This document shows, piece by piece, positions 2,883 through 19,128 of a stretch of DNA of 32,458 nucleotides. Within the stretch, counting starts at the first letter, position 1. Every line of letters starts with the position of its first letter. Both the position numbers and the translations under genes were made by a program. The notes below the pieces were generated by a model. That model was not told the DNA's origin and made no database searches. It was given only the letters and a program-made list of their open reading frames with translations. The stretch lies in contig JASLVU010000003.1 of the NCBI GenBank assembly GCA_030741225.1, positions 1-32,458 on the forward strand, in the 5' to 3' direction. The stretch is from Candidatus Poseidoniaceae archaeon. Its GTDB lineage: Archaea > Thermoplasmatota > Poseidoniia > Poseidoniales > Poseidoniaceae.

Positions 2883-5252
2883 ATGTCGCCAATTTTTTGG
2901 GGCATGAGGAATACAAGCAATGCATCGATTTGTTCGGTTTGTGAACATCCGTCATCATCCAGTACGTGTTTGCTGTGCGATTCAATCATCAATACGAACA
3001 AAACACAGCAATGGGGGTGTCAGGTGAGTCAAGGTTCGCATGATGAAGCAATCGAAATGCTTGGCGCCGAAAATAAATCCGCTCAAAAAAGATGGAAATC
3101 TATTGTCCAAAGCACATCACAATCCAAGGATGTTCAATGGGCACGATTGTCCGACATTTCGAAAGATCCCGTGCTTTGTTCACCATGCACCGATGAAGAA
3201 TTGGATGAAATAAAGATTCGAATTTCAAACGGGCAAAGGCTCTCAAATCTTCAAAAGCAACAATTACAGCGAGGGTTTCAACTTGTTGGGGACGTACATG
3301 TTTCTATTGCAGAAGGTAAGATGATGATTAATGGAAGTACTCTTCCCGCTCAAGTCCCTCTTCTTTCGGTTCTCAATTTGCTTTCTTCGAAGAAATCGAG
3401 AATTGGTTGGAATTTGGAAAAATTATTGATTGCTCTTGGGTCAATGAATACTGCCGCTATTTCGGCAACATTACCTCATCACATCCACAGACGGTTCATG
3501 CGACATAACCACATTTTAGAATCGAAACAAAAACCAGGTGCAGCAGCAGTTCTCTCTTGGGTTGAATGGGTATCTGAAAATCATTTATCTCCGCCTGAGG
3601 ATTGTTTGATTCATCCTTTAGGGGCATGGTCTCGGGATGTTCGTTCATGTTTGACCACACCGAACGGTTCAACCTTTGAAGCCAATTTGAAGGAGGCATT
3701 TGTCCATCACCCCCCGACTCTCGAGTGTCTTGTCCAGTTCCCTTGGATCCCCCGTTGGATGGTGTATACGTCTCCAATCCAAGTGAGCACAAATCGGCCA
3801 TGGCCGCTTCAGATTGTCAACGAAAAGCTGAAGTTGATTGTTCGGTCGAAAAACAACGCCTCACGAAAAACCTCGGTACCAGATAATCCTGCACTATGGG
3901 CTCTTCTGCTGTCCTACACCTATTCCCCGATGTCTTCAGAAGCTGGAAATTTACTGTATGCACTCCAGTACAACTGGACCAATACTGAGTCAACCGTCTC
4001 ATCGATTTCATCTCCAATCAAACGCTCGATACAGTTACTTCGTCAAGTCATTGACAGCAATTCGGACCGAATTTTCGTTCACGACCAATACATGCTTGTC
4101 ATAGGCCGTTTGGGACATTTCTTCGAGATTAAAGTTGGCCGCGGGGCTCATGGCGCTCCATTCATTATCAAGTCAATCGATTCTCTTGAACCTCGGTCAT
4201 CGACTCCGCTCTGCATTTACGACAGCTCATTCCACTCGTCGGTGCCGTTGGGTGATACCATTGTATCTGTGTTACTCGCACTTCTTGATGATGTGAAAAC
4301 CTCTACCGAAATTGACAGTCTTCAAAAATATCTTTGTCATTACCCTCCGCTAGGTTTCCCTCGTCTCCTTCATGAAGGACACTTACGATTGCTCAACACT
4401 TCGACCCTTGCTGAATTCAAGAAGATTGTCGATCAAAGTTTAGATTCCCGTATTCGATGGTTGAAGGAATCGCCTCGAGAGAATGGAAATGAATTTGAAC
4501 AAATTCAAGGACAGAACATGATGCATCTTTTCCGTAGAAACATTGCTTTCAATCGCAACAGGTGGCAATTCGATAATCACAGGAGAGCAAGAACATCACG
4601 ATGCGACACATTGGTCGAGCATGCTCTTGCTGCCGATTCTGCACTACCTCACCCCCAATTCATTGAATTGTGGCATGAATCACTTGAAAAAGGGGACGAG
4701 GAAGGCCATATGCACAACAATTACGTTCATCGCCGAATGCTCAGAGAAATAGTTCCTCCGCAGATTCCAATAGCGACGAATAATCGATTACCAACCGGAG
4801 ATATACGAAACGGAGAGCGCCGGTTTTGCGAGGTGTTTTCTCGTGTATGGGATGCGATGATGCACCATCCAATTGGCTCTACATTCCGCATGGGTGTTGT
4901 TGATGGTGGTGATTTGACTTTCGAACATTGTCACCTTGGTGTAACTCTTCGAAACCAACAAGAGAGGCGAATTGTCAGACGATTCGCAAATTTGCTCGGT
5001 TTTGTTGAAAATGGAACCTTTGGGCAGAGGATGGTGTTTGTCCGTCGAGACCATGCTCGAACGACTGCATTTAGAGACCTGTCGACCTTTCTAAATCGTA
5101 TACAAGACAACACATATGCAGTAAATACCTCGCCATGGCGTTGGCATTATATCCAAGTGGTAAAAACACCGACAGAAATACCAACTCTTCGATGGGAACT
5201 CGAGCAAGACTTGAGAGATACCAAGCGTAAAGGGGTTCCAAGAAATCGTTAG
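2883..5252 (+). CDS. Large protein of unknown function with N-terminal four-cysteine zinc motif
   Basis: A 789-residue soluble protein that I do not recognise. Near the N-terminus is a C-x2-C-x8-C-x2-C knuckle (Cys17, 20, 29, 32), suited to binding one zinc. A region of about 100 residues in the first half is polar and helical. The middle (around residues 405-470) contains IGRLGHFFEIKVGRG and, later, PLCIYDSS and PLGDTIVSVLLALLDD, which looks like a small beta-rich domain followed by a helix. The C-terminal 150 residues are rich in Arg and aromatic residues, suggesting nucleic-acid contact. There are no transmembrane segments, nuclease motifs or Walker motifs. ATG 2907, just before the zinc motif, is an alternative start. 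It begins 9 bp after the threonine aldolase gene and its stop overlaps the converging thioredoxin-like gene by 4 bp. Confidence 0.75.
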   Translation: MSPIFWGMRNTSNASICSVCEHPSSSSTCLLCDSIINTNKTQQWGCQVSQGSHDEAIEMLGAENKSAQKRWKSIVQSTSQSKDVQWARLSDISKDPVLCSPCTDEELDEIKIRISNGQRLSNLQKQQLQRGFQLVGDVHVSIAEGKMMINGSTLPAQVPLLSVLNLLSSKKSRIGWNLEKLLIALGSMNTAAISATLPHHIHRRFMRHNHILESKQKPGAAAVLSWVEWVSENHLSPPEDCLIHPLGAWSRDVRSCLTTPNGSTFEANLKEAFVHHPPTLECLVQFPWIPRWMVYTSPIQVSTNRPWPLQIVNEKLKLIVRSKNNASRKTSVPDNPALWALLLSYTYSPMSSEAGNLLYALQYNWTNTESTVSSISSPIKRSIQLLRQVIDSNSDRIFVHDQYMLVIGRLGHFFEIKVGRGAHGAPFIIKSIDSLEPRSSTPLCIYDSSFHSSVPLGDTIVSVLLALLDDVKTSTEIDSLQKYLCHYPPLGFPRLLHEGHLRLLNTSTLAEFKKIVDQSLDSRIRWLKESPRENGNEFEQIQGQNMMHLFRRNIAFNRNRWQFDNHRRARTSRCDTLVEHALAADSALPHPQFIELWHESLEKGDEEGHMHNNYVHRRMLREIVPPQIPIATNNRLPTGDIRNGERRFCEVFSRVWDAMMHHPIGSTFRMGVVDGGDLTFEHCHLGVTLRNQQERRIVRRFANLLGFVENGTFGQRMVFVRRDHARTTAFRDLSTFLNRIQDNTYAVNTSPWRWHYIQVVKTPTEIPTLRWELEQDLRDTKRKGVPRNR

Positions 5253-6202
5253 TCTTCTCTACGTGGATTACGTAACAAGGCAACTGCAGCGAGTATCCCC
5301 ACACTTGAAATCATTGAGATTCCAGGTAGTGACCCTTCATCTTCATCGCATCCCTCTGGAAGCATGCATTCTAATTCGTCAGAGGTTTGATTCTCTACGG
5401 GAGTATCTTCAACAGGGTAATTCAACTGGTAAAGTAGGTGAACAGAGAGATCGTTGCCGTCGTATGCAGGCGGAAGAGTGATGCTGGTATTACCTGACAT
5501 GGAAATCTGACTGCCATTAACTTCCAACAGCCCAAGTTCAAGGATTCCACGAACTACATGGGGGTAGTCCTCTAAGCCATTTGTTCCCTCTTCGAAGTTT
5601 GCCGACTTTTCAACAATCCATGCTTGGGCAACGATTGAACTTCCGTTCGGTGCTGTTAAACTCTCAATGTTCAAAGCCCATTCTACTGTCCCAGATGTGT
5701 TGGATGTGGGCGACCATACAAACAGAGAATCTCCTGCATGTTCAAGTGATTCTTGTGCGTGCTGGGTAAATTCAACCTCTAGAGATTCTGAACTCGTGAC
5801 GCTTCCTGGCTTGATGATTGTACCGTTAAATATCACCACAGGTGGTGCGAAAACACCGTACCTGTCGTGGAATCTTTGGTCAACTTCAATACTCCCAAGA
5901 GGGTCTTGGATTTCATTGATTGCCCGATGTATGTGGTACTGTTGAATGCCGGAATCATTTTCGATAGCATCAAGAGCATGCTCAACGTCAACACAGTTTG
6001 AGCACCATGTTGCAGTGTAGACCTCAACAACAGGTGGCAAATCACTCAAATTAAGCGTGGAGTTTCCAGTGCTGTTTGCATATGCCCATTGTCCCCCAAT
6101 AAGTAGGCCGACATCAGTTTGAGTTGCCGGAGCGGCCACGGTTGTGGCCGGCCCAACACTTGTCAAAATTAAGATCCCAATGAGGAGGATTGCTTTGCGC
6201 AT
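5249..6202 (-). CDS. Exported, membrane-anchored thioredoxin-fold protein (CSNC active site)
   Basis: A 317-residue protein starting with a signal peptide (MRKAILLIGILILTS, then an Ala-rich cleavage region near residue 24). After a short Asn/Ser/Thr linker comes a thioredoxin-like domain: VVEVYTATWCSNCVDVE with the redox pair Cys67/Cys70, and further on a YGVFAPPVVIFNG segment carrying the cis-proline-type PP. The second half is a beta-rich domain of about 130 residues. The end is an acidic linker, one short hydrophobic helix (ISMISSVGILAAVALL) and a basic tail, typical of archaeal surface proteins held by a C-terminal membrane anchor. It probably handles disulfides or reads redox state outside the cell. 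It overlaps the upstream TFB-like gene by 34 bp, so the two are likely co-transcribed. The fold call is good; the substrate is unknown. Confidence 0.8.
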   Translation of the reverse strand: MRKAILLIGILILTSVGPATTVAAPATQTDVGLLIGGQWAYANSTGNSTLNLSDLPPVVEVYTATWCSNCVDVEHALDAIENDSGIQQYHIHRAINEIQDPLGSIEVDQRFHDRYGVFAPPVVIFNGTIIKPGSVTSSESLEVEFTQHAQESLEHAGDSLFVWSPTSNTSGTVEWALNIESLTAPNGSSIVAQAWIVEKSANFEEGTNGLEDYPHVVRGILELGLLEVNGSQISMSGNTSITLPPAYDGNDLSVHLLYQLNYPVEDTPVENQTSDELECMLPEGCDEDEGSLPGISMISSVGILAAVALLRNPRRED

Positions 6203-7389
6203 ATCTTGGCGAGACGTTGTTTGGATATCAAAGCATTCTTTTTGTGAATCTCACTTGTTGGGTCGTAGCATGCATTTGAAGCATCAAATGCTCCGTTGTC
6301 GTGGAATGTTCCTGCTTCGGATTCCTTCACCAATGCGTCGTATCGGGAACGAATACCGCTGCTGGTTAAGCCAAAGACGTCTGCCAAAAGGTCGGCTGCT
6401 CCTGACTGCCAGCCGAAGTAATTCATGCTTGCATACATGGTGACGCAAACAATCATACGTGACTCGACATTGATTGAGAGAGCTTTGCTGGTGCCTTCAT
6501 TGAGTAGACTTAGACGGGCCTCAGTCTCGTAACTCAAGAGCTCCAATTCCTCGGCGCTGAAGTGGACTTCCAGTCCTTCGAGGATGTGCCAGATTGCTTG
6601 GTCAATGGCATCTTCTCTTCTGTCGTCGGCGTTTTTGCGCTTTGGCAATTTTTCCCACCCCATAGTGACTTTGGCCTTCCAGTGGCTAAGAATTCGAATG
6701 CGTGCATTCATGATTTGCTTTGGGCTAATGCCTGCTTGCTCCATGGTGGCACGTCGGTCAAATTTAGGCATAAGCCCCATTTCACCTGCAAGTTCAACGA
6801 TTGCTGCAGCAATGATGACTGCGTTTTGCTCTTCTGATGAACCCTTGATTCCTTTCTCCTTTCGACAGATGGATTGCTTTGGCATCCCGAGTCGCTTAGC
6901 CATAGACTTACTCTGCTTCTTTCGGATTGCTTCCTGTTCAGCAGTGAGGGGCTTGCATGACATCTCGACCAAGAATTCCAAGATGTGGAGGGCATGTCGA
7001 CCATACAGTTTCTCGATATTTCGCTTAACGCGCTTGGCGAATGGGTGAGGGTTTCGAACAGAACTACGGTCCATTTTCTCCAAAAGATAGTATTTGCTCG
7101 GATTGTTTACGCCGCGAGACCCGTAACGCATTTTAGGACCTGTTCCGCCCAAGTTTCTGTTTCGGTCTACATCGTTTCGAACAGCATGGTAGTGAGCTGC
7201 TTCACCAAACAAAACAGCCCCGTTGTCCTTGGCATCGGTTTCCTGGTTGTTGTGTACTAGGCCACAATCGTTGCACCACACTTCACCTTTTTGTGGGACT
7301 CGTTCTAGATTCTTGCTACCGCAATCATCGCATTCGTTTAACTCCTTTTTTGTTATCTTCATATCTTTACTCATTTTTTCCAACTCCAT
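6169..7389 (-). CDS. Non-canonical transcription factor B (TFIIB-like)
   Basis: A 406-residue protein with an N-terminal zinc ribbon C-x2-C-x15-C-x2-C (Cys20, 23, 39, 42; context ECDDCGSK and VWCNDCGLV), the spacing of TFIIB/TFB. Two cyclin-like helical repeats follow at about residues 115-250 and 270-375, including AAAIVELAGEMG in repeat one and YASMNYFGWQSGAADLLADVFGLT in repeat two. TFB recruits RNA polymerase to TBP-bound promoters. The B-reader/B-linker region that usually contains GPEWRAF is not recognisable; instead there is a basic GGTGPKMRYGSRG segment, so this is probably an alternative factor and not the general one. ATG 7374 is a possible later start. The gene diverges from the AddBA pair and shares a palindrome-rich control region with it. 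Confidence 0.85.
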   Translation of the reverse strand: MELEKMSKDMKITKKELNECDDCGSKNLERVPQKGEVWCNDCGLVHNNQETDAKDNGAVLFGEAAHYHAVRNDVDRNRNLGGTGPKMRYGSRGVNNPSKYYLLEKMDRSSVRNPHPFAKRVKRNIEKLYGRHALHILEFLVEMSCKPLTAEQEAIRKKQSKSMAKRLGMPKQSICRKEKGIKGSSEEQNAVIIAAAIVELAGEMGLMPKFDRRATMEQAGISPKQIMNARIRILSHWKAKVTMGWEKLPKRKNADDRREDAIDQAIWHILEGLEVHFSAEELELLSYETEARLSLLNEGTSKALSINVESRMIVCVTMYASMNYFGWQSGAADLLADVFGLTSSGIRSRYDALVKESEAGTFHDNGAFDASNACYDPTSEIHKKNALISKQRLAKICAKQSSSLGS

Positions 7390-7685: not shown

Positions 7686-7761
7686 ATCTTTCTCGATTCG
7701 GTGAAAACAGTTGAGAGCCTTCAAGAACAGTCGACATCTGTGCCCTTGTTGGGGGAACGTT

Positions 7762-10700
7762 ATGAACGGAAATAGTATGCCAGCGATAACTCTTGAAGCA
7801 GTTCCCTCGGGCCATAATATTCCTACATGGCTCCTCCAAAGCATATGTGATGGAGAGTGTGACAATCATCTTTTCTTGTATCCAAACGAAGGTAGCAGGA
7901 GTCAAGTCCTGCATCGATTAGCACAATTAAATGTTCCAATTGATACAACGCATCACCTTACACTGCGTCGGTTGATTTCTTTGATGATTCTCGATTCAGG
8001 ATTGCCACCTGTTCTTCAAGACAGTTCGGGATTGTTTCTATCTATCCACGCCCATGTCAAAAAGGCTGCTGAATCCGGCGATTTACCTCTGATGTATTCT
8101 CCTCAAAATCAAAGGCAATGGTCACCATATCAAACCGAACGTCTGCTTGCATTGCATCACTCGTTAAGTGAATTGAAGAATCCTTGGAATTGGGATAACG
8201 ACCCAGGTGCAAAGGAGTTTGATTCTATTTTGAGAAAGGTCTGTGAGCAATTGGGAGGGACTCACCCACATCATGCGCTTACAAGCTTGATCAAACATTT
8301 CAAAGAAAACGATTCAGTACCGTTTACACTCAACGATGTTCAAGGTCTATTTGTCTTAGATTCAGCCCCAGACTACACTGAGGTCGAACGAACTTTCCTT
8401 CAACAGATTGGATGTATGCGGCCAGTACACCAACTGTGTGTCCCCGGTTCCTTTCGACTTGGTTATCATGGGTCACATTTGCTTGAGGGTGATTGGGAAT
8501 ACGTGAATGAAGAAACCTTGCCTTCCTGGATTCCGAAACATCAAATTTGGGATTTTGACGACATAAATTCGTGGAGGTCTCCTGTTTCCCTTGAACGCAA
8601 GACCACGTATCATCGAATAACTGTCAACCGGAGAGCACATTGTATCGATGCCGCTTTTGAAATCCTTCATGAGTATCGTCAATCGATGAATGGGGAGGTT
8701 CTCATCATCGATGGCTCTGCAGAGAACAACAGAAGAATGTGGAATTCTAGGCTTCGTTCGCTTGGCTACCTTACTGGTTTTGAAAAACAATCTCTTGAAC
8801 AAATTCCGTCTCTTGCGAGTCTCGCTCATCTCATGAGGATTGGTGATGGTTTAGACGCTTGGTCGATTGATAAGTTAAAATCGTTATTTGAAAATCAAAG
8901 CCTTCCTCTTCCAAATGGAGGAGTAGGAGGTTTGCAGCACCCTACCAAAACAGATTGGACTCCTCGCCCCCATCCGCACATTTTGGAAAATATTGCTCGT
9001 ACCTTTCATGTCCGAGGTGGTTTAGGTGCACTTCATCGATGGCTTTCTACGCTTTCAAACGCAACTCCACAACTTGGAATTGAGCGAGAAAGGGCATTAC
9101 AAGAACTTGAGGAAACTCAATGGTGGCTTGGATGTATTGCTCAAACATGGCACCCGCTTCTCGACAAATTTTCTCAAGAGGTATTGAAGACTGAAATCAT
9201 CGGTTGTTCGTCTGGTGAAAAACTTCCAATGCCCCCACGTCCCAAAGACGGTTTGCAGTGGCTTGATACGTTGCTTTCGAAATTGGATTGGGATTCTCTG
9301 AAAGACCTAACGGTTGGCCACAATCGTTCTATCGCAGGATTACAACACCTTCGCGAATCACACAAAACCACTCAAAAAACGCTAAAAAAAGCGAACTTAG
9401 AAGTTCCGTCAACCGGCCAAGAATTTCTCAATTATATCGACCATTTAATTCAAAACACCACCGTTCCACGTACGCGAAACAGAGGAAATCAAATACAAAT
9501 TTTAACTCCTGAAGAGGCTCAAGGGATGGAGGCAGACCTCGTTCTTCTTGTTGGATTGGATGTTGGTTCATGGGCGATGAAGTCTCCAAGAGTTCCCTGG
9601 CTCGATGCGCAATCTAAACTCCGATTAGGCATGCTTCATTCTGATTTGACAATTCGCAAAGGCCGTCACCATCTGCGCCATTTGTTAAATTCTGCAACAT
9701 CCGTAATTGTGTTTGATAGCACAAAAGAAGAAGGGGGCGGCCCTAGCGCTCCCCTTGCGGAATGGTTCACTGAGTTACGCCAAAGTGGGGAGCTTTCATT
9801 GCTTCAAAACCCCCCGAGTTTTCTCCCTCAATCTTCCCATCAAACTGGAAATTTGAATCGAAGTTGGCATTGGACTACCGATGAACACGGTGAAGCATGG
9901 CTAACGCCAAGGCCGTTTACTGTGTCTGTTCAAGATGGAGTCATTTTTGCCGAGCGCGCAGGACATCGCCTTCGTGACCAACGGCAACGCCTCGGATTAG
10001 CATTGAGAGATGGCCTCCAACCCAGCGGTAATGTACTTTCAAAAAGTTCAGTGGCGATGGCACATGAGGTTTCCATTCAACTGGACCGATTTCATCGTCA
10101 GCCTAGCCACAAAAATTTAGAGAAGAACGAATATCTTCCGTGGCACCTTCGAAAGTATTTACTCAGTGTTGATGGGCTAAATTTGCGTCCGAAGAAAAGT
10201 CAAGTTTCAGTTGGTAGCAACCAACATGAATCATGGCCGAATCTTGGTATGAAAGGTTCGAGGAGTAACGGACCTGCAATAGATCCACGTCCATTACCTC
10301 CACAGAATATGAAGAGTGATATTCTCAATTCGGTGATGGGGTATTCCACTCCAATTGAAGTCGATGTTTGGTCTCCAAGCCGAATTCAGTCTTGGCTTGA
10401 ATGTCCGCGTTTAGCATGGATGAAAAACCATCTCAAAGCTCAAGCCCAAGAATCGCAGTCTGAAGATTTGGACCACAGGACTCGCGGTACTATTCTGCAC
10501 GATGCTGAAGCTTCCCTACTGCGTTTCCACGGTGTTCCTACGGCGGCACGACCGATAACTTCGCCTCTACCTCTCGATCGAACTCCTTTGGAACAACTTT
10601 GGCTTTCGATTCTCGATTTCCTCAGGGATGAGGTCTCTTGGCTCAAACGTGACGACGCTATTGCTGTTCATCGTTGTAGAGAAATGCTTGGTGTCACTCC

Positions 10701-11493
10701 AGATGTATGGCGAAATTATCTCGAAGGAGAGGGGCAAATTTCCTGTGGCGGCCGGATAGGAAGGATGCTCCTTTCGGATTATTCACTGAATCATGCTGCG
10801 CCGATAGCATGCGAATATGGTGTCGGACTTGACGGGAACTCAGCAATTACATTGGATGCTTGCGATGACAAAGGAAATCCTTCACCGTTCAAAATTCGTG
10901 GAAGAATTGATCGAGTTGACGAAATCGTTCTTGATGAGAAGCAAAGGAAGGAAGCAATTGCAGACGGCGTCCTTTCCGAAACCCTCGTATCAGAGCCGAT
11001 GCCCCTGGGGCCAGGCCTTCTCCCTCCGGCGAATCGCTTGGTTGTCATTCGGGATTTGAAGACAATCAATGGACCTAAAATCAATGAACAGGGGAATCGG
11101 CATCGACGTGGTTTATTTGATGAAGTACAACTCGCATTGTACGCAAGGGCATGGGAATTGTCGTTCCCCGGCGATCGCGTTGTAGGCATCGGAGTAACCG
11201 AAATAGGAGAATCTACAGTTCATTACCTTGAAATGGACCAGTCTGTAACCAAATATCTGCATGATGCAGAAATAGGAGAACGAACATATTACTCACAAAA
11301 ATTGCATCGATATCTCGAATCGCAATCGAGTGAGGATATTGGATTACGAGCGTTGATTGCAGAACGACTGAGAACCTCAAACCGTGCAATTTTAGCAGCA
11401 AAATCTGGTAATGTGAACTCAACTCCGGGGCGTCACTATTCGTTTAGTCCAATACGCCTTGTGTATCCAAGTAAATTTGGAGGGAATGCATGA
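7762..11493 (+). CDS. addB: AddB-like subunit of a two-nuclease helicase-nuclease
   Basis: A 1243-residue protein from ATG 7762, which has GGGGGA at 7751-7756; TTG 7711 and ATG 7777 are alternatives. The N-terminal half has an inactive-helicase look: where AddB has a Walker A motif, this protein reads YPNEGSRSQVLH without the GKT lysine. A later segment (ILTPEEAQGMEADLVLLVGLD, then RVPWLDAQSKLRLGM) matches the C-terminal helicase part of AddB/RecC-like proteins. The C-terminus holds a PD-(D/E)XK nuclease: SPSRIQSWLECPRLAW, Asp1050 in GRIDRVD, Asp1098-Leu-Lys1100 in IRDLKT, then a DEVQLALYA helix. The iron-sulfur cluster of bacterial AddB is not possible, because no cysteine follows the nuclease motif. 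It overlaps addA by 4 bp. The complex would resect double-strand breaks. Confidence 0.82.
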   Translation: MNGNSMPAITLEAVPSGHNIPTWLLQSICDGECDNHLFLYPNEGSRSQVLHRLAQLNVPIDTTHHLTLRRLISLMILDSGLPPVLQDSSGLFLSIHAHVKKAAESGDLPLMYSPQNQRQWSPYQTERLLALHHSLSELKNPWNWDNDPGAKEFDSILRKVCEQLGGTHPHHALTSLIKHFKENDSVPFTLNDVQGLFVLDSAPDYTEVERTFLQQIGCMRPVHQLCVPGSFRLGYHGSHLLEGDWEYVNEETLPSWIPKHQIWDFDDINSWRSPVSLERKTTYHRITVNRRAHCIDAAFEILHEYRQSMNGEVLIIDGSAENNRRMWNSRLRSLGYLTGFEKQSLEQIPSLASLAHLMRIGDGLDAWSIDKLKSLFENQSLPLPNGGVGGLQHPTKTDWTPRPHPHILENIARTFHVRGGLGALHRWLSTLSNATPQLGIERERALQELEETQWWLGCIAQTWHPLLDKFSQEVLKTEIIGCSSGEKLPMPPRPKDGLQWLDTLLSKLDWDSLKDLTVGHNRSIAGLQHLRESHKTTQKTLKKANLEVPSTGQEFLNYIDHLIQNTTVPRTRNRGNQIQILTPEEAQGMEADLVLLVGLDVGSWAMKSPRVPWLDAQSKLRLGMLHSDLTIRKGRHHLRHLLNSATSVIVFDSTKEEGGGPSAPLAEWFTELRQSGELSLLQNPPSFLPQSSHQTGNLNRSWHWTTDEHGEAWLTPRPFTVSVQDGVIFAERAGHRLRDQRQRLGLALRDGLQPSGNVLSKSSVAMAHEVSIQLDRFHRQPSHKNLEKNEYLPWHLRKYLLSVDGLNLRPKKSQVSVGSNQHESWPNLGMKGSRSNGPAIDPRPLPPQNMKSDILNSVMGYSTPIEVDVWSPSRIQSWLECPRLAWMKNHLKAQAQESQSEDLDHRTRGTILHDAEASLLRFHGVPTAARPITSPLPLDRTPLEQLWLSILDFLRDEVSWLKRDDAIAVHRCREMLGVTPDVWRNYLEGEGQISCGGRIGRMLLSDYSLNHAAPIACEYGVGLDGNSAITLDACDDKGNPSPFKIRGRIDRVDEIVLDEKQRKEAIADGVLSETLVSEPMPLGPGLLPPANRLVVIRDLKTINGPKINEQGNRHRRGLFDEVQLALYARAWELSFPGDRVVGIGVTEIGESTVHYLEMDQSVTKYLHDAEIGERTYYSQKLHRYLESQSSEDIGLRALIAERLRTSNRAILAAKSGNVNSTPGRHYSFSPIRLVYPSKFGGNA

Positions 11494-14400
11494 TGATTCG
11501 GTTTAATCGTAGTCAGCGCCTAGGTTTGGACTTGGACAAACATATAGCCCTTGACGCCGGAGCCGGAACTGGAAAAACCACGGTTATGGCAGAACGTTAT
11601 GTTCAACATCTTTTGTCTCATGAACAAAGAGCAACTTTGCTTCTACCCCCAGGCCCGCGAGAGCCATTGAACGGCCATGGCTCCTTACGTGCTCCGCCAA
11701 AACAGCGCACCAGTCAGAAGGAATGGAAAGCCTTACTTCCCAGTGAAACGGTTGCAATTACATTTACGAAAAAAGCAGCATCAGAATTGAAATCAAGAAT
11801 CCGTTCAAGAGTTGCACAAACACGTTCCAGCCCAATTCAATCAGGAGATGTCGATGGGATTTTCGACCCAAGAATTCGTGACCAAGCCGATGTTGAAATG
11901 CTTCTTTCATCGCTGGACGAGGCACCAATCTCTACAATTGACGCATTTCTTTCTCAACTTGTATCCCCTCATCTTGATTCTGTCGCAATTCATCCGAGCA
12001 GAGAACAGATTGCGGAAGAACGCTCGCCGTTGTTAACTCGCGAGGTTTTACAATCCGCATGGAGAATTCGAACAGTTTCAGATGCTCTCGAGGCAGGCGT
12101 ACGAGGCAATGTTGCGGAATTCATTTCTGCACGTAATCGGCTGGCGATTCTTCTTGGTGGTCAAGAACGAGCTGCCGTAGTTCTCAGTGGTATGCTCGGA
12201 AAATCATTGTTCGTTGAAGAATCTCACCGAGCAATGGTGTCGCGAGCAAAATCAATAGGCCATTTTTGGGATGGAAGAAGTTCATTGCCGAATGAAGTAC
12301 TCATGGATATGTTTTTGGAACCAGTTCGTGATATTGCCGTAGAATACACTCAGATTCTGCAAGGTCTACTTGTACAATGGACAGACCATTTCTTGGGATA
12401 TTCGACACATTATGTCGCACCATGTGAATTGGAAATCGAAACATCGCTTACACGGTTTAACCATCTAACAAATCTAGCTAGAGAGCCGTTGCCGGAGAAT
12501 CCAATTGAATGTATTCAGTGGGTTTGGCAAGTGGCGCTTGCCTCAACTTCAGCCAGTCAGTTGGAGTCAGAGGACGAACCAAACTTTTTCCCAAAAGGCG
12601 GCTTACCTCAAGCGAACCATTCAAATGGATGGCATCCGGGACTTTACGGAAAGTCTGCAGCAACCACATTGTCGAAAGGGGTTCGAGATACTCTCCATGC
12701 AGAAGCCGCGCTCTTGGCTGAAAGTCTACGTAGTCATCTCAATTCACGCCAAGGACGGCTTGTTCGCTTGCTTGGAAAATGTGCTTTTTTGTTTCAGCCA
12801 TTATCTGATATTCCATACATGCCAGATGATTGTGAACTTCGTCCACAACCCGTCGGTACTGAATTTGAAGATTTAGCTCCTTCAGGTAATCTCAGAATTT
12901 CCAGTGAGTTACAAACAAGTGTTCTCAGCGATTTGCTACTTGTCCATCGTGGATGTCAAGACATTCTAACTTTGATGAAAGCCCAAGAAGGGGTTCACGA
13001 CTATGACGACATTCAACGATTAGCGGCTGATTTAACCCTTGCCCGTTGCCCAGACATTGTCCGTCACATCTATCCCCATGAAGTGGTTCAAGCATTGGAT
13101 AGTTTCGATGATGAACCGTGGTCCGACCGTCATATCGCTCGAGCAATAAGGTTGGCGTCAGATGATCAACAATGTTTTGAAGATTTAAATCGCAGATTCG
13201 CTGTTTTGCAATCGATTCGACGCCAGTTTCGAGCTTTTATTATCGATGAATTTCAAGACACGAACCCTGCGCATTTCCGACTTCTCGCTCGGTTATGGGG
13301 TCATCGGAATGCAAATTTTGACGAGCCAAAAAAACCACTCGGACCATGGGATCCGACAATTTGTATAGTTGGGGATATGAAGCAGAGTATCTATCGTTTC
13401 CGTCAAGCAGAGGTAACAGTCATGCGAAGGACAGTATCCGCGATTAAGCTTGCCAATGAAACAGAGTTGCTGGACTCTCGATTAGACCATCTACGTAAGA
13501 ACGGCCATGGTCGTGACCCGAGGCCTGTTGGTGCTGGTGGTCAAACCGGTTCGTTCATTGTAGGTACAGAGGTCAAAGGTTCGTCAATACCCTCTCTACC
13601 TTGGGAGCATGTCAGTTTTGCATTTGACGACGATGAGAGCGCATTCAATGTTCTTGACGAGGAACATAAGCATCGGCGCTCGCTCGGACATGTTGACCTT
13701 ACATCGAATCACAGAACATTACCGAATCTAATGGATATGATGAACGGTATGTTCCAAGATGTATTTTCCCCACGACACCACCTTCTCCCTGGCGACTGGC
13801 ACGCAGAACATCAACATCTTCGGGCAGCACGTGTATTAGATAATTCAAACGAATCTAATTCCAGCATTATTTCGGTAAATAATGAGAGCAGTGATGCGAA
13901 ATCATCTCTCTCCAATTGCCACGGAAAATCCACTATCGACTCAAAACAGCAAGGGCAAGTTGAATGGCTTTTACCGCTTCAAATTGATGCTCAGAATCCG
14001 AGCCTAGAACTTGACGAGTACTTCGATACCTTCAGTGCACTTGAAGCTTCAAACCATCACCTCGAAAATGAGTTAATTGCAGCACGATTGCAGGCACTTC
14101 TCTCTCATCGGCCAACACAAGTTTGGAATTCGAAGACGGATTCTTACACCGAAATACCTCAAAATAATACCGAGGTGAAGCCCGAAGATGTCCTGGTGCT
14201 TGTTCATTCTCGAAAACATATTCCAGATTTGATGACTCGATTGCAATCGAGAGGAGTTCCGGTCATGGCCGACAGGCAGGGCGCTTTACTCTCACAACCA
14301 ATCGCGTTACCCTTACTTTCATGCCTCGAACTTCTTGCTAATCCAATGTCTCGTCATGCTGCACTAACACTTGCCCGCTCCCCAGTTTTCGGATTCAATG

Positions 14401-16580
14401 ACGCAGAATCTCACCGTTTAATGACTCAAGAGTTTGAAGGAAATTGGTGGCAAAAAATACAGCATTTTGCCCCGAATGATTCGATTCGTCAGCTTGCCCA
14501 TCATCTTGAACAACTTGTTCAGTGTGGTGCATTGCACGATGTGTTTGATGTAATTCTGGACCATTCTGACCTTTTGGTGGCTTATCCAGATGATACTTCT
14601 CGCCAAAATGCCGAGTCGATATGTGCTTTGATGGTCAATATAGGCAATGAGCTAGGTCACGAACCTTCTGCAATCTTTAATCGACTCACTGATCTTGAAG
14701 ACTTGGGCAATCAAGGTCCATCAGCTATTACGACACCTTCCGGCGGAGCAGTTCAAATCATGACCATTCATGGTGCTAAAGGGCTTCAAGCGCCGGTCGT
14801 CGTCGTAGCAGGATTATTCCACGCCGGGAAGTCTGATGCAGCCCTAGCAGCGAGAAACAATGTCCTTGTCACACCTCAAGTTATTGCCGGCAGAATAAAT
14901 CCATGGAGTTCTCGCGAACGACCCAAAGACGGTCTTTGGGAATTCACCAAGTGCATCGACCATGCTCAGCGCCAAGCAGAACGACGTCGAGAGTTCTATG
15001 TTGCTTTGACGAGGGTGGAGAATCATCTGATTTTATCCGGTTCTCCATCTCGAACCGCAGAAATAGATTCGAAAACCAAGAAATTGATGGTTCGAGTAAA
15101 ACCATCACTCAAAACTATGGGGGGGATGCTCTTGGATGGTTTACGCAGTCTTTCGCATCAAAACCGGATAGAGGATTCTCCGTGGCTATTGGAGGGAGAT
15201 GATTTCGCATCACCGCTCTCATCCTTTACCGAAACAATGCTGGAATTAGATCCGTTTGAATTATCCAATACTTCTCTGCTTGGAATCCCTACTCTGGGGG
15301 GGATAAACATCTATCATGGACCACAATGTTTCCCGAATTTACAGAACAAAACCCCTCTCCAACAATGGTACGCTGTTGAGCAGCGTATGAGCGGACTCTC
15401 CGATGGACACAAGACCGACAAGAAGGTTGTTCCAACAGTTCATCAAATTCTAAGGATGCCAGCACACAGTCTTGACTCAAGTTTCAACAATCCACGAACT
15501 CACTGGTTGACGGAGGTTCGAGGATGGATGCCGGAACCATTCCACTTCTTTTCAACCCAAGCAGGAGAGAGCATGAAACCCAAATCTCTCTATCCTGAGG
15601 CCACGGTATTTGGAACTCTCATGCACCGACTTATTGAAATCGGACTTCAAAACCCCGCATCTCAAAACGGTCCACCAGTTCTTGATTTACCTTCGGCATG
15701 GGTGTATGATGGAGAAGACAAACTCGATGATTATGAAACCATCAAACGCGTCATGGCAGAAGAAGGTCTTGGCGTTGACCAGTCAAGCGATGACGTAGCA
15801 CAAAGAACTGCAAAAAGGTTGGCTGAACTGGGCCGCTTGATACGAATCGGATTGCTTGGTAAGTATGCTGCTGGTGGTCAATATCATGGATATGTGGTGG
15901 AAGGACTAAGGACGGAATTACCGTTTTATTATGTTGACAAGGTGAATTTTTCTGATTTATTCAGAACGGGGTTCTCAGTCAATGGACCAGTACCTCTCTC
16001 TCAAATCAATCATGTGGATGTTGTGTTTGATGGTCGAGCAGACCTTGTACTCGCCTTACGAGATGACAACGGGAATGGATTTTTGCAAGTTGTTGACTTG
16101 AAAACCAAAGGATGCCGAGATGAATTCAACTCGGATGATTCCAGCCGAGGTAGTTCATTACAACGCTATGAAGGTGATCTCCTCGACCCTCATGCATCAA
16201 CCGGTGCAGAAGCCACAATTCTTGAGCAACATAAACTGCAACTTACGTTGTATTCCCTCGCATTAGAATCAATTGAGTTACAAAAGCCCGAATCAAAACG
16301 CCGAACAGTACTCCCGCCTTCGCTTCTCATAGGCGCATCTGGCAGGATTGTCCAAATGACACCAGAAGAATACTACGAATCCAAAAAGTTGTTTTCGAAG
16401 CATGTTCGTTGGATGGCTCAGTTGTCTGCAGCACCTGAAACAGTTCCGGAGCCGTTAACTGTTGAAGACTCCAATGGAGATGTTTTGGCGTTGTGCCCAT
16501 TTTCAAAGGGAGACATCCGATTGGGTCTTTCCGGAGACGATATTCTTGGGAACAATGAAGAAAGAGATTATGATTTGTAA
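11490..16580 (+). CDS. addA: AddA-like UvrD-family helicase with C-terminal PD-(D/E)XK nuclease
   Basis: A 1696-residue protein with all superfamily 1A helicase motifs in order: Walker A AGAGTGKT (23-30), motif Ia TFTKKAASEL (91-100), Walker B DEFQDT (586-591), motif III VGDMKQSIYRFR (from 627), motif IV region DLTSNHRTL, motif V TIHGAKGLQ (about 1092-1100) and motif VI FYVALTRVENHL (from 1169). The C-terminal RecB-type nuclease shows His1379/Glu1383 in TLMHRLIEIGL, Asp1518 in DGRADLVL, Asp1536-Leu-Lys1538 and a QLTLYSLALE helix. It is the 3'-5' motor and one of two nucleases of an AddAB-like break-resection complex. It is some 450 residues longer than typical bacterial AddA, with extra polar segments at about 50-80, 640-720 and 770-900. 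Translation is coupled to addB through ATGATGA. The 3' end overlaps the converging methyltransferase by 13 bp. Confidence 0.88.
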   Translation: MMIRFNRSQRLGLDLDKHIALDAGAGTGKTTVMAERYVQHLLSHEQRATLLLPPGPREPLNGHGSLRAPPKQRTSQKEWKALLPSETVAITFTKKAASELKSRIRSRVAQTRSSPIQSGDVDGIFDPRIRDQADVEMLLSSLDEAPISTIDAFLSQLVSPHLDSVAIHPSREQIAEERSPLLTREVLQSAWRIRTVSDALEAGVRGNVAEFISARNRLAILLGGQERAAVVLSGMLGKSLFVEESHRAMVSRAKSIGHFWDGRSSLPNEVLMDMFLEPVRDIAVEYTQILQGLLVQWTDHFLGYSTHYVAPCELEIETSLTRFNHLTNLAREPLPENPIECIQWVWQVALASTSASQLESEDEPNFFPKGGLPQANHSNGWHPGLYGKSAATTLSKGVRDTLHAEAALLAESLRSHLNSRQGRLVRLLGKCAFLFQPLSDIPYMPDDCELRPQPVGTEFEDLAPSGNLRISSELQTSVLSDLLLVHRGCQDILTLMKAQEGVHDYDDIQRLAADLTLARCPDIVRHIYPHEVVQALDSFDDEPWSDRHIARAIRLASDDQQCFEDLNRRFAVLQSIRRQFRAFIIDEFQDTNPAHFRLLARLWGHRNANFDEPKKPLGPWDPTICIVGDMKQSIYRFRQAEVTVMRRTVSAIKLANETELLDSRLDHLRKNGHGRDPRPVGAGGQTGSFIVGTEVKGSSIPSLPWEHVSFAFDDDESAFNVLDEEHKHRRSLGHVDLTSNHRTLPNLMDMMNGMFQDVFSPRHHLLPGDWHAEHQHLRAARVLDNSNESNSSIISVNNESSDAKSSLSNCHGKSTIDSKQQGQVEWLLPLQIDAQNPSLELDEYFDTFSALEASNHHLENELIAARLQALLSHRPTQVWNSKTDSYTEIPQNNTEVKPEDVLVLVHSRKHIPDLMTRLQSRGVPVMADRQGALLSQPIALPLLSCLELLANPMSRHAALTLARSPVFGFNDAESHRLMTQEFEGNWWQKIQHFAPNDSIRQLAHHLEQLVQCGALHDVFDVILDHSDLLVAYPDDTSRQNAESICALMVNIGNELGHEPSAIFNRLTDLEDLGNQGPSAITTPSGGAVQIMTIHGAKGLQAPVVVVAGLFHAGKSDAALAARNNVLVTPQVIAGRINPWSSRERPKDGLWEFTKCIDHAQRQAERRREFYVALTRVENHLILSGSPSRTAEIDSKTKKLMVRVKPSLKTMGGMLLDGLRSLSHQNRIEDSPWLLEGDDFASPLSSFTETMLELDPFELSNTSLLGIPTLGGINIYHGPQCFPNLQNKTPLQQWYAVEQRMSGLSDGHKTDKKVVPTVHQILRMPAHSLDSSFNNPRTHWLTEVRGWMPEPFHFFSTQAGESMKPKSLYPEATVFGTLMHRLIEIGLQNPASQNGPPVLDLPSAWVYDGEDKLDDYETIKRVMAEEGLGVDQSSDDVAQRTAKRLAELGRLIRIGLLGKYAAGGQYHGYVVEGLRTELPFYYVDKVNFSDLFRTGFSVNGPVPLSQINHVDVVFDGRADLVLALRDDNGNGFLQVVDLKTKGCRDEFNSDDSSRGSSLQRYEGDLLDPHASTGAEATILEQHKLQLTLYSLALESIELQKPESKRRTVLPPSLLIGASGRIVQMTPEEYYESKKLFSKHVRWMAQLSAAPETVPEPLTVEDSNGDVLALCPFSKGDIRLGLSGDDILGNNEERDYDL

Positions 16581-18225: not shown

Positions 18226-18300
18226 TACATGTCAAATCAAGGGTTTTGCTCTGTCCTTTCATGCGTCGGCTTGATAGGGTGGTGACGTGTGGGCGTTCAT

Positions 18301-18314
18301 GGAGGCTTACCTCC
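18301..18314 (+). promoter_or_regulatory. Short hairpin in the leader of the coiled-coil gene
   Basis: GGAGG-CTTA-CCTCC forms a perfect 5-bp stem directly before GGTGA (18316-18320) and ATG 18325. It could affect ribosome access, because GGAGG itself is a Shine-Dalgarno-like sequence held in the stem. If GTG 18289 were the real start this would be coding sequence. Confidence 0.3.
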
Positions 18315-18324
18315 GGGTGAAAAA

Positions 18325-19128
18325 ATGACCGAAGATGGAACCATTACACCAGAAGATTTTGAACCTGCAGTCAAGAAATTGTCACCGGACGAATACGAAG
18401 ACCAAATCAAGGTCCTTTACGAGGCGTTCACTTCTGCACAAGCTGATTTGGAGGATGCATTAGCGACCATTGAAGTTCTTGAAAAGGAAATAATTGAGCG
18501 AGAGATTGAGAAGGAAACTCAAGAGGCCCTTCTTTCTGAAAAGGAGGTTCGAATCAGAGAACTGGAACTTCGAGCGGTCAAGGCAACAAAAAAGGTCGAG
18601 CATCTTGAACCAGAATTGGAAAAGATGGAGGAAAAATACTCTCGTGAAAAGACTCGTGTAAGCACTGTTTTCAGCATTGCTGAAGAACTCGATAATGATT
18701 TGAAACATGCAGTTGTTGAGATGAAGGCTCGTGATGATTGGTATGTTGACCACATGCAGATTTTTGAAGACCTTAACAAAGCAATCAAGGTTCGATATGA
18801 AATGATCGAACGAGCAATAGAGGCTGAACGGAAGTCACAGCATATGGCACGAGCCTTCACCGAACGTATGGAAGACATGGTCGAAGCCCGAGCATCTGAC
18901 ATGGCAGAGGCTGAAGCAGAAGCAAAGGCTGCTGAGGAAAACAACGCCTCAGTGGAAACCGTCGAATCTGAAGAAAACGCCTCGTCCGAAGAGCCTTCTG
19001 AGGAAAGTGCAGACAAGCCTGATGAGCCATCTGACGAAGAACAGACTGAAGATACGCCAGAAGAAGCATCGACCACGACCACTGCCTCGGCTACATGGGC
19101 TGACGGCGATGACCCTTGGGCAGATTGA
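18325..19128 (+). CDS. Acidic coiled-coil protein of unknown function
   Basis: A 267-residue soluble protein from ATG 18325, which has GGTGA five bases upstream; an in-frame GTG at 18289 would add 12 residues. Residues about 30-200 form long Glu/Lys/Arg heptad-like helices (for example LEKEIIEREIEKETQEALLSEK is partly visible as alternating charges), so a coiled coil is likely. The last 70 residues are extremely acidic and Ser/Thr/Pro-rich and end in WADGDDPWAD, a disordered tail possibly used for protein contact. No enzymatic motif is seen. The stop codon lies within the ribosome binding site of the decarboxylase gene (GAGGTG, 19127-19132), so the two are translationally linked. A structural or division/membrane-scaffold role is possible but unproven. 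Confidence 0.78.
   Translation: MTEDGTITPEDFEPAVKKLSPDEYEDQIKVLYEAFTSAQADLEDALATIEVLEKEIIEREIEKETQEALLSEKEVRIRELELRAVKATKKVEHLEPELEKMEEKYSREKTRVSTVFSIAEELDNDLKHAVVEMKARDDWYVDHMQIFEDLNKAIKVRYEMIERAIEAERKSQHMARAFTERMEDMVEARASDMAEAEAEAKAAEENNASVETVESEENASSEEPSEESADKPDEPSDEEQTEDTPEEASTTTTASATWADGDDPWAD

Follow-up and report, generated by a model that had tools for sequence, protein, structure and literature searches.

What would a pair of genes resembling the bacterial helicase-nuclease AddAB do in an archaeal genome? RecBCD/AddAB is the bacterial solution to the processing of DNA breaks and HerA-NurA with Mre11-Rad50 the archaeal one (PMC12977600, PMC9960219). In the open-access literature we found no paper linking AddAB with Poseidoniales, noting a loss of Mre11-Rad50 there or describing recombination repair in the order, and of the repair genes only photolyase is named in the searched passages of the paper on the Marine Group II genome. 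We examined a 32,458-nucleotide stretch of a Candidatus Poseidoniaceae contig (hereafter the window) that carries such a pair, together with the corresponding loci of its relatives.

Anatomy and family identity of the gene pair

The pair consists of an addB-like gene (7762..11493, plus strand, as are all features of the pair given below; 1243 aa, ATG start, with an in-frame TTG at 7711 as a possible alternative start), recognized by family matches and by a profile-profile match to haloarchaeal AddB, and an addA-like gene (11490..16580; 1696 aa). The two meet at the junction GCATGATGATTC in a 4-base ATGA overlap, and both reading frames are intact. The sequence-only reading had described them as an AddAB-like pair in an archaeal genome, open to the objection that the contig might be bacterial or chimeric. 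The description holds: the contig encodes a TFB-like protein, the archaeosine synthase RaSEA, archaetidylserine decarboxylase and arch_pth2, the same locus occurs on independently assembled contigs, one of them titled Candidatus Poseidoniales, the named relatives are Poseidoniales/Euryarchaeota genomes, and the conserved synteny, together with these observations, rules out contamination or a chimera. The window also encodes the archaeal peptidyl-tRNA hydrolase Pth2 twice in tandem (998-1366 and 1367-1792) and a TFIIB-type zinc-ribbon protein (6169-7389, minus strand) that is divergent from addB and is its neighbour in only some members of the window's genus.

AddA comprises a UvrD helicase, UvrD_C and a C-terminal PDDEXK_1 nuclease, and its best matches are AddA models (TIGR02785 addA_Gpos, E=7.7e-47) and, in the PDB, B. 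subtilis AddA (3u44_A, E=1.1e-38). AddB matches PDDEXK_1 (E=9e-11) and, weakly, TIGR02786 addB_alphas (E=2.3e-9). Both proteins score below the NCBIfam equivalog cut-offs (159.8 against 707.65 bits for AddA and 36 against 486.5 bits for AddB), which are naming thresholds and not mechanistic features. The SF1A motifs of AddA, among them Walker A (DAGAGTGKT, 11553..11579), Walker B/motif II (DEFQD, 13245..13259) and motif VI (14979..15029), are intact and conserved across ~60 orthologs, as are the nuclease motifs of both subunits. The complete PD-(D/E)XK motifs of AddA (His1379, D1518, DLK 1536-1538, Q1584/Y1588; 15624..16253) and AddB (GxxxH 909-913, D1050, DLK 1098-1100, QxxxY 1123-1127; 10486..11142) bear out the two nuclease domains seen at first.

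Two peculiarities noted in the window proved to be traits of the whole order. The Walker A lysine is missing from AddB in every ortholog (~60-66 aligned), and the degenerate P-loop region (HLFLYPNEGSRSQVLHRL, 7867..7920; consensus over ~66 orthologs) reads YPNEGSRSQ in the window. AddA is unusually long throughout the order (~1,550-1,725 aa), its extra length consisting of scattered insertions relative to 3u44_A. One low-complexity insertion of ~35 aa (residues 783-818, 13836..13943) is found in the window alone and is absent from a relative that is 95% identical (L038).

Relatives of AddB had to be sought with profiles, because the window protein, searched as a single sequence, matched no plasmid protein even at E=0.01. 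The Poseidoniales AddB profile aligns with haloarchaeal AddB at 99.1% probability (E=1.7e-18), co-linearly over 935 columns and nearly the full length, and the haloarchaeal profile matches S. suis RexB (99.2%) and Sphingomonas AddB (98.1%; shuffled control 0.1%). Compared directly, the Poseidoniales profile reaches 2% with RexB and 37% with Sphingomonas AddB; the profile comparisons thus tie Poseidoniales AddB to bona fide AddB/RexB only via its haloarchaeal relatives. The sole relevant match of AddB in a PDB profile search is Cas4, and it is weak (E=0.04). AlphaFold models built with 5-6 similar sequences, one of AddB residues 1-1200 and one of the nuclease part of AddA from a relative (L041), had mean pLDDT values of 34 and 33 and gave no usable fold.

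In the AddA tree, which was rebuilt without RecB and Sphingomonas AddA because long branches met, a branch of 2.7 parts AddA from UvrD/Rep, which speaks against the objection that the helicase might cluster with plain UvrD families. Poseidoniales AddA forms one clade on a long stem (100/100, length 2.4). With a bacterial sampling of plasmid records and E. coli, and with long branches, this clade joins the Deinococcus/Thermus/Picosynechococcus plasmid pairs (94/94) and not Firmicutes AddA, and its grouping with the haloarchaeal clade is borderline rejected (p-AU 0.051). The sequence-only reading had offered an old transfer that has drifted, or a distinct archaeal branch. The pair is best read as an old acquisition on the Poseidoniales stem, with a well-supported branch of its own; loss of the Fe-S cysteines is not a feature of the system as a whole.

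The pair resembles bacterial AddAB/RexAB (B. subtilis AddAB, PDB 3U44, and alphaproteobacterial members) in the SF1A helicase and C-terminal RecB-type nuclease of AddA, in a scaffold-like AddB with its own nuclease, in its adjacent, overlapping genes and in the Fe-S-type cysteines that most AddB members possess. It differs in its archaeal host, its scores below the family cut-offs, an AddA that is 300-450 aa longer, an AddB without a P-loop in all orthologs and, in most orthologs, an additional set of four cysteines in the nuclease of AddA. Actinobacterial AdnAB likewise has two motor-nuclease-like subunits with a nuclease in each, but in known AdnAB motor domains are present in both subunits and the Fe-S cluster only in AdnA, the AddB-like one; no Poseidoniales AddB ortholog has the Walker A lysine of a motor P-loop.

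Haloarchaeal plasmids also carry AddB-AddA pairs (L135-L139, L146, L253, L254), annotated by domain names only (PD-(D/E)XK nuclease and UvrD-helicase in WP_284063817/818 and WP_008414113/114), so AddAB among archaea is not unique to Poseidoniales. These pairs share the gene order and the four-cysteine AddB, but they are plasmid-borne, often in defence-like neighbourhoods (several adjoin BREX, Argonaute or restriction genes), and their AddA is ~1,250 aa long and lacks a cysteine set; the Poseidoniales AddAB, in contrast, is chromosomal and universal. The Deinococcus and Picosynechococcus plasmid pairs resemble the Poseidoniales pair in having C-terminal cysteine sets in both subunits, but together with those of Thermus they encode much shorter proteins, on accessory replicons and with no conserved housekeeping position. 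On Deinococcus deserti plasmid 2 (L252, 4555-7839), the annotation splits the AddA-like gene into three successive parts, so that it is probably broken in this strain.

Distribution of AddAB and the archaeal resection proteins

To assess the distribution of the pair, a survey that the sequence-only reading had proposed for Poseidoniia, we searched 147 genomes, 40 from Poseidoniales and 107 from other Thermoplasmatota, including a sister family of the same class (f3). A profile built from 25 orthologs detected AddB in 38 of the 40 Poseidoniales and in none of the 107 others, in agreement with a single-sequence search, and AddA is present in 37/40 relatives and in 13/13 of those that are ≥90% complete. 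AddAB is accordingly found in practically all Poseidoniales genomes of adequate completeness and nowhere else in the sample.

The most informative point, absent from the sequence-only reading, is that genomes with AddAB lack Mre11-Rad50 and NurA. In HMM searches of the same 147 genomes, an Mre11/SbcD-type protein was found in 104/107 genomes outside the order and in 0/40 within it, with two weak, partial SbcD-like matches in a separate search of 37 Poseidoniales genomes. Rad50 gave only weak matches in the order (~31 bits or less), and the 68 genomes of the phylum sample with Rad50 at E≤1e-12 all lie outside Poseidoniales. NurA was detected in 39/107 genomes outside the order and in none of the 40 within it, and another search gave 0/89 (HMM searches); its absence carries less weight than the absence of Mre11-Rad50, since NurA is patchy outside the order. 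These absences rest on HMM searches of incomplete MAGs, and a highly divergent Mre11 or other resection enzyme could be present in the order. A HerA-like DUF87 ATPase of ~837 aa with apparent membrane segments persists in family f1 (G000:C238:5318-6163; orthologs L154-L159), and the genomes of this family that encode it have no NurA.

Fisher tests give p ~1e-33 for AddB and for Mre11, values that overstate the anti-correlation because phylogenetically they reflect one acquisition and one loss; the strength of the evidence lies in the complementarity of AddB and Mre11, not in the p value. From the mirror-image distribution of Mre11 and the absence of Rad50 and NurA, we infer that on the Poseidoniales stem AddAB took the place of Mre11-Rad50, and perhaps of NurA as well, in end resection.

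The locus itself is fixed. Wherever both genes were read, addB and addA are neighbouring, co-oriented and in the same order, and the gene order threonine aldolase - g5249 - addB - addA - g18289 - RaSEA recurs, apart from local differences, in the two Poseidoniales families, which speaks for vertical descent from the stem onward. For addA and addB, a comparison of the window with the relative nearest to it gives a dN/dS of 0.06-0.07, indicating purifying selection. The proteins that flank the pair throughout the order (g5249 at 5249-6202, minus strand, and g18289 at 18289-19128, plus strand, in the window) have no informative family matches, one of them being a coiled coil, and are possible functional partners of AddAB.

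Cysteine sets in the two nucleases

The sequence-only reading had stated that AddB lacks an iron-sulfur cluster, which is accurate for the window, where three of the four cysteines are gone, but does not extend to the system. Alignments of all loci show the AddB pattern CPR...C-x2-C-x5-C intact in nearly all orthologs. The first ligand of the family, Cys881 (WSPSRIQSWLECPR, 10402..10404), is invariant and kept in the window, and the last three cysteines, now Tyr1226, Ser1229 and Tyr1235 (11437..11466), have been lost only in the window's own genome and its five sisters (L038=L129, L039-L042), where the replacements are Tyr, Ser/Gly/Asn and Tyr. The tree places this recent loss as a single event on a branch with 100% support. 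Both tyrosines, at positions 1 and 3, survive across the six genomes despite a synonymous divergence >1, which suggests a selected replacement of Cys by Tyr and not decay. Sphingomonas AddB and S. suis RexB also lack the four-cysteine set, and its loss in the window therefore does not disqualify the protein as an AddB.

In addition to the AddB set, most AddA orthologs have a set of their own, made up of C-x-R-R-x-W ahead of the nuclease and a C-terminal C-x2-C-P-x8-C, which is intact in 43 of the 62 scored rows and is not found in haloarchaeal, alphaproteobacterial or Firmicutes AddA or in E. coli RecB. The window retains Cys1669 (16494..16496) as a remnant of the C-terminal motif, the other three ligands being lost. 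At least 10 changes of the AddA state are required on the tree, pointing to repeated erosion, and within the window's clade the AddB set went first, as two members (L039 and L041) still have the AddA set while that of AddB is gone. By analogy with the known AddB/Cas4 pattern, the cysteine sets probably bind Fe-S clusters. Two adjacent Cas4/RecB-like PD-(D/E)XK proteins with Fe-S-type Cys motifs (587 and 532 aa) are encoded directly downstream of an ABC ATPase in G000:C230 (~8.4-11.4 kb; L002, L003, L005, L007).

A proposed role in end resection and its alternatives

Collectively, we consider it probable that the pair is an AddAB-type helicase-nuclease serving as the standing double-strand-break end-resection enzyme of Poseidoniales, acquired on the stem of the order, with Mre11-Rad50 lost thereafter. 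As the order has AddAB and is without the usual archaeal break-processing proteins, AddAB probably took over break processing; the inferred cellular job would be that of Mre11-Rad50 and HerA-NurA, to which the pair is unrelated and of which Mre11, Rad50 and NurA were not found in the order. By analogy with AddAB, the heterodimer would bind a broken end, unwind it and trim both strands, with AddA as the 3'-5' SF1A motor whose C-terminal nuclease cuts the 3'-ended strand, and AddB as a motor-dead scaffold and guide whose nuclease cuts the 5'-ended strand. The remaining 3' tail would pass to RadA. The history would comprise a single acquisition on the Poseidoniales stem, a later loss of Mre11-Rad50 and also of NurA, provided that it was present in the stem lineage, and, in the window's clade, a change of the AddB set to Tyr/Ser/Tyr followed by erosion of the AddA set without relaxed selection. 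The fuller scenario, an order-wide swap of Mre11-Rad50 (and NurA) for an AddAB that feeds RadA, with an ancestral Fe-S cluster in each nuclease that was repeatedly discarded, seems to us evenly poised between true and false.

The suggestion that the enzyme has its own recognition sequence found no backing: no Chi-like non-palindromic octamer stands out in 1.6 of the 2.06 Mb of a single-contig relative (G053), in a scan that had no positive control. AddAB Chi sites can be short and need not be over-represented. A palindrome, TCTATAGA (tending to YTCTATAGAR), is ~12-fold over-represented on the same contig (G053:C1; loci L172-L251). Its 22 copies in the 1.6 Mb examined are all confined to a single 576-kb segment (558,209-1,134,401), a clustering that ranks first of 15,014 octamers with similar copy number. 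The palindrome, 17/22 copies of which fall inside ORFs and which is not in the window, is reminiscent of sites that organise a macrodomain or the terminus, for example matS.

A role in phage defence, which the sequence-only reading had also raised, would have the pair degrading invading linear DNA, with breaks repaired by another, unrecognised enzyme. The haloarchaeal and bacterial plasmid pairs lend this some appeal, as they adjoin BREX, Argonaute, restriction and DUF499/DUF1156 genes, and the AddA tree weakly joins Poseidoniales to the Deinococcus/Thermus/cyanobacterial plasmid pairs (94/94). The Poseidoniales locus, however, is universal and occupies a fixed housekeeping position, the searches for Mre11, Rad50 and NurA leave no known resection machinery for repair, and PADLOC returns no match for AddB, only generic UvrD/GajB matches for AddA and no single system covering both genes. 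We therefore consider defence unlikely as the role of the pair.

It is less likely still that a UvrD-type helicase and a Cas4-like nuclease are chance neighbours that form no AddAB complex. This would fit the scores far below the AddA and AddB equivalog cut-offs and the weak Cas4 match as the sole relevant PDB match of the AddB profile, but it sits poorly with the helicase and C-terminal nuclease layout of AddA and its best matches to AddA, with the co-linearity of AddB and other archaeal AddB over nearly the full length, with the invariable adjacency and order of the genes and with the long branch between AddA and UvrD/Rep. Most improbable is that the Fe-S-less version of the window's clade is decaying and non-functional, even though each subunit has lost three ligands in the window and divergence is faster at the C-terminal end of AddA (dN 0.2-0.4 over the final 5%). 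The catalytic motifs are intact and both genes have a dN/dS of ~0.07, a value that also holds for the final 5% of AddB, which rules out a pseudogene; the two tyrosines are kept across the clade, and alphaproteobacterial AddB and RexB are likewise without the cysteine set.

If end resection by AddAB, the preferred reading, is true, break repair in archaea that are among the most abundant of the surface ocean would run with a swapped first step. Whether AddAB can feed a RadA-type recombinase would then become testable, and so would the role of the AddAB Fe-S cluster, for which closely related natural variants exist that have both cysteine sets, a single one or neither.
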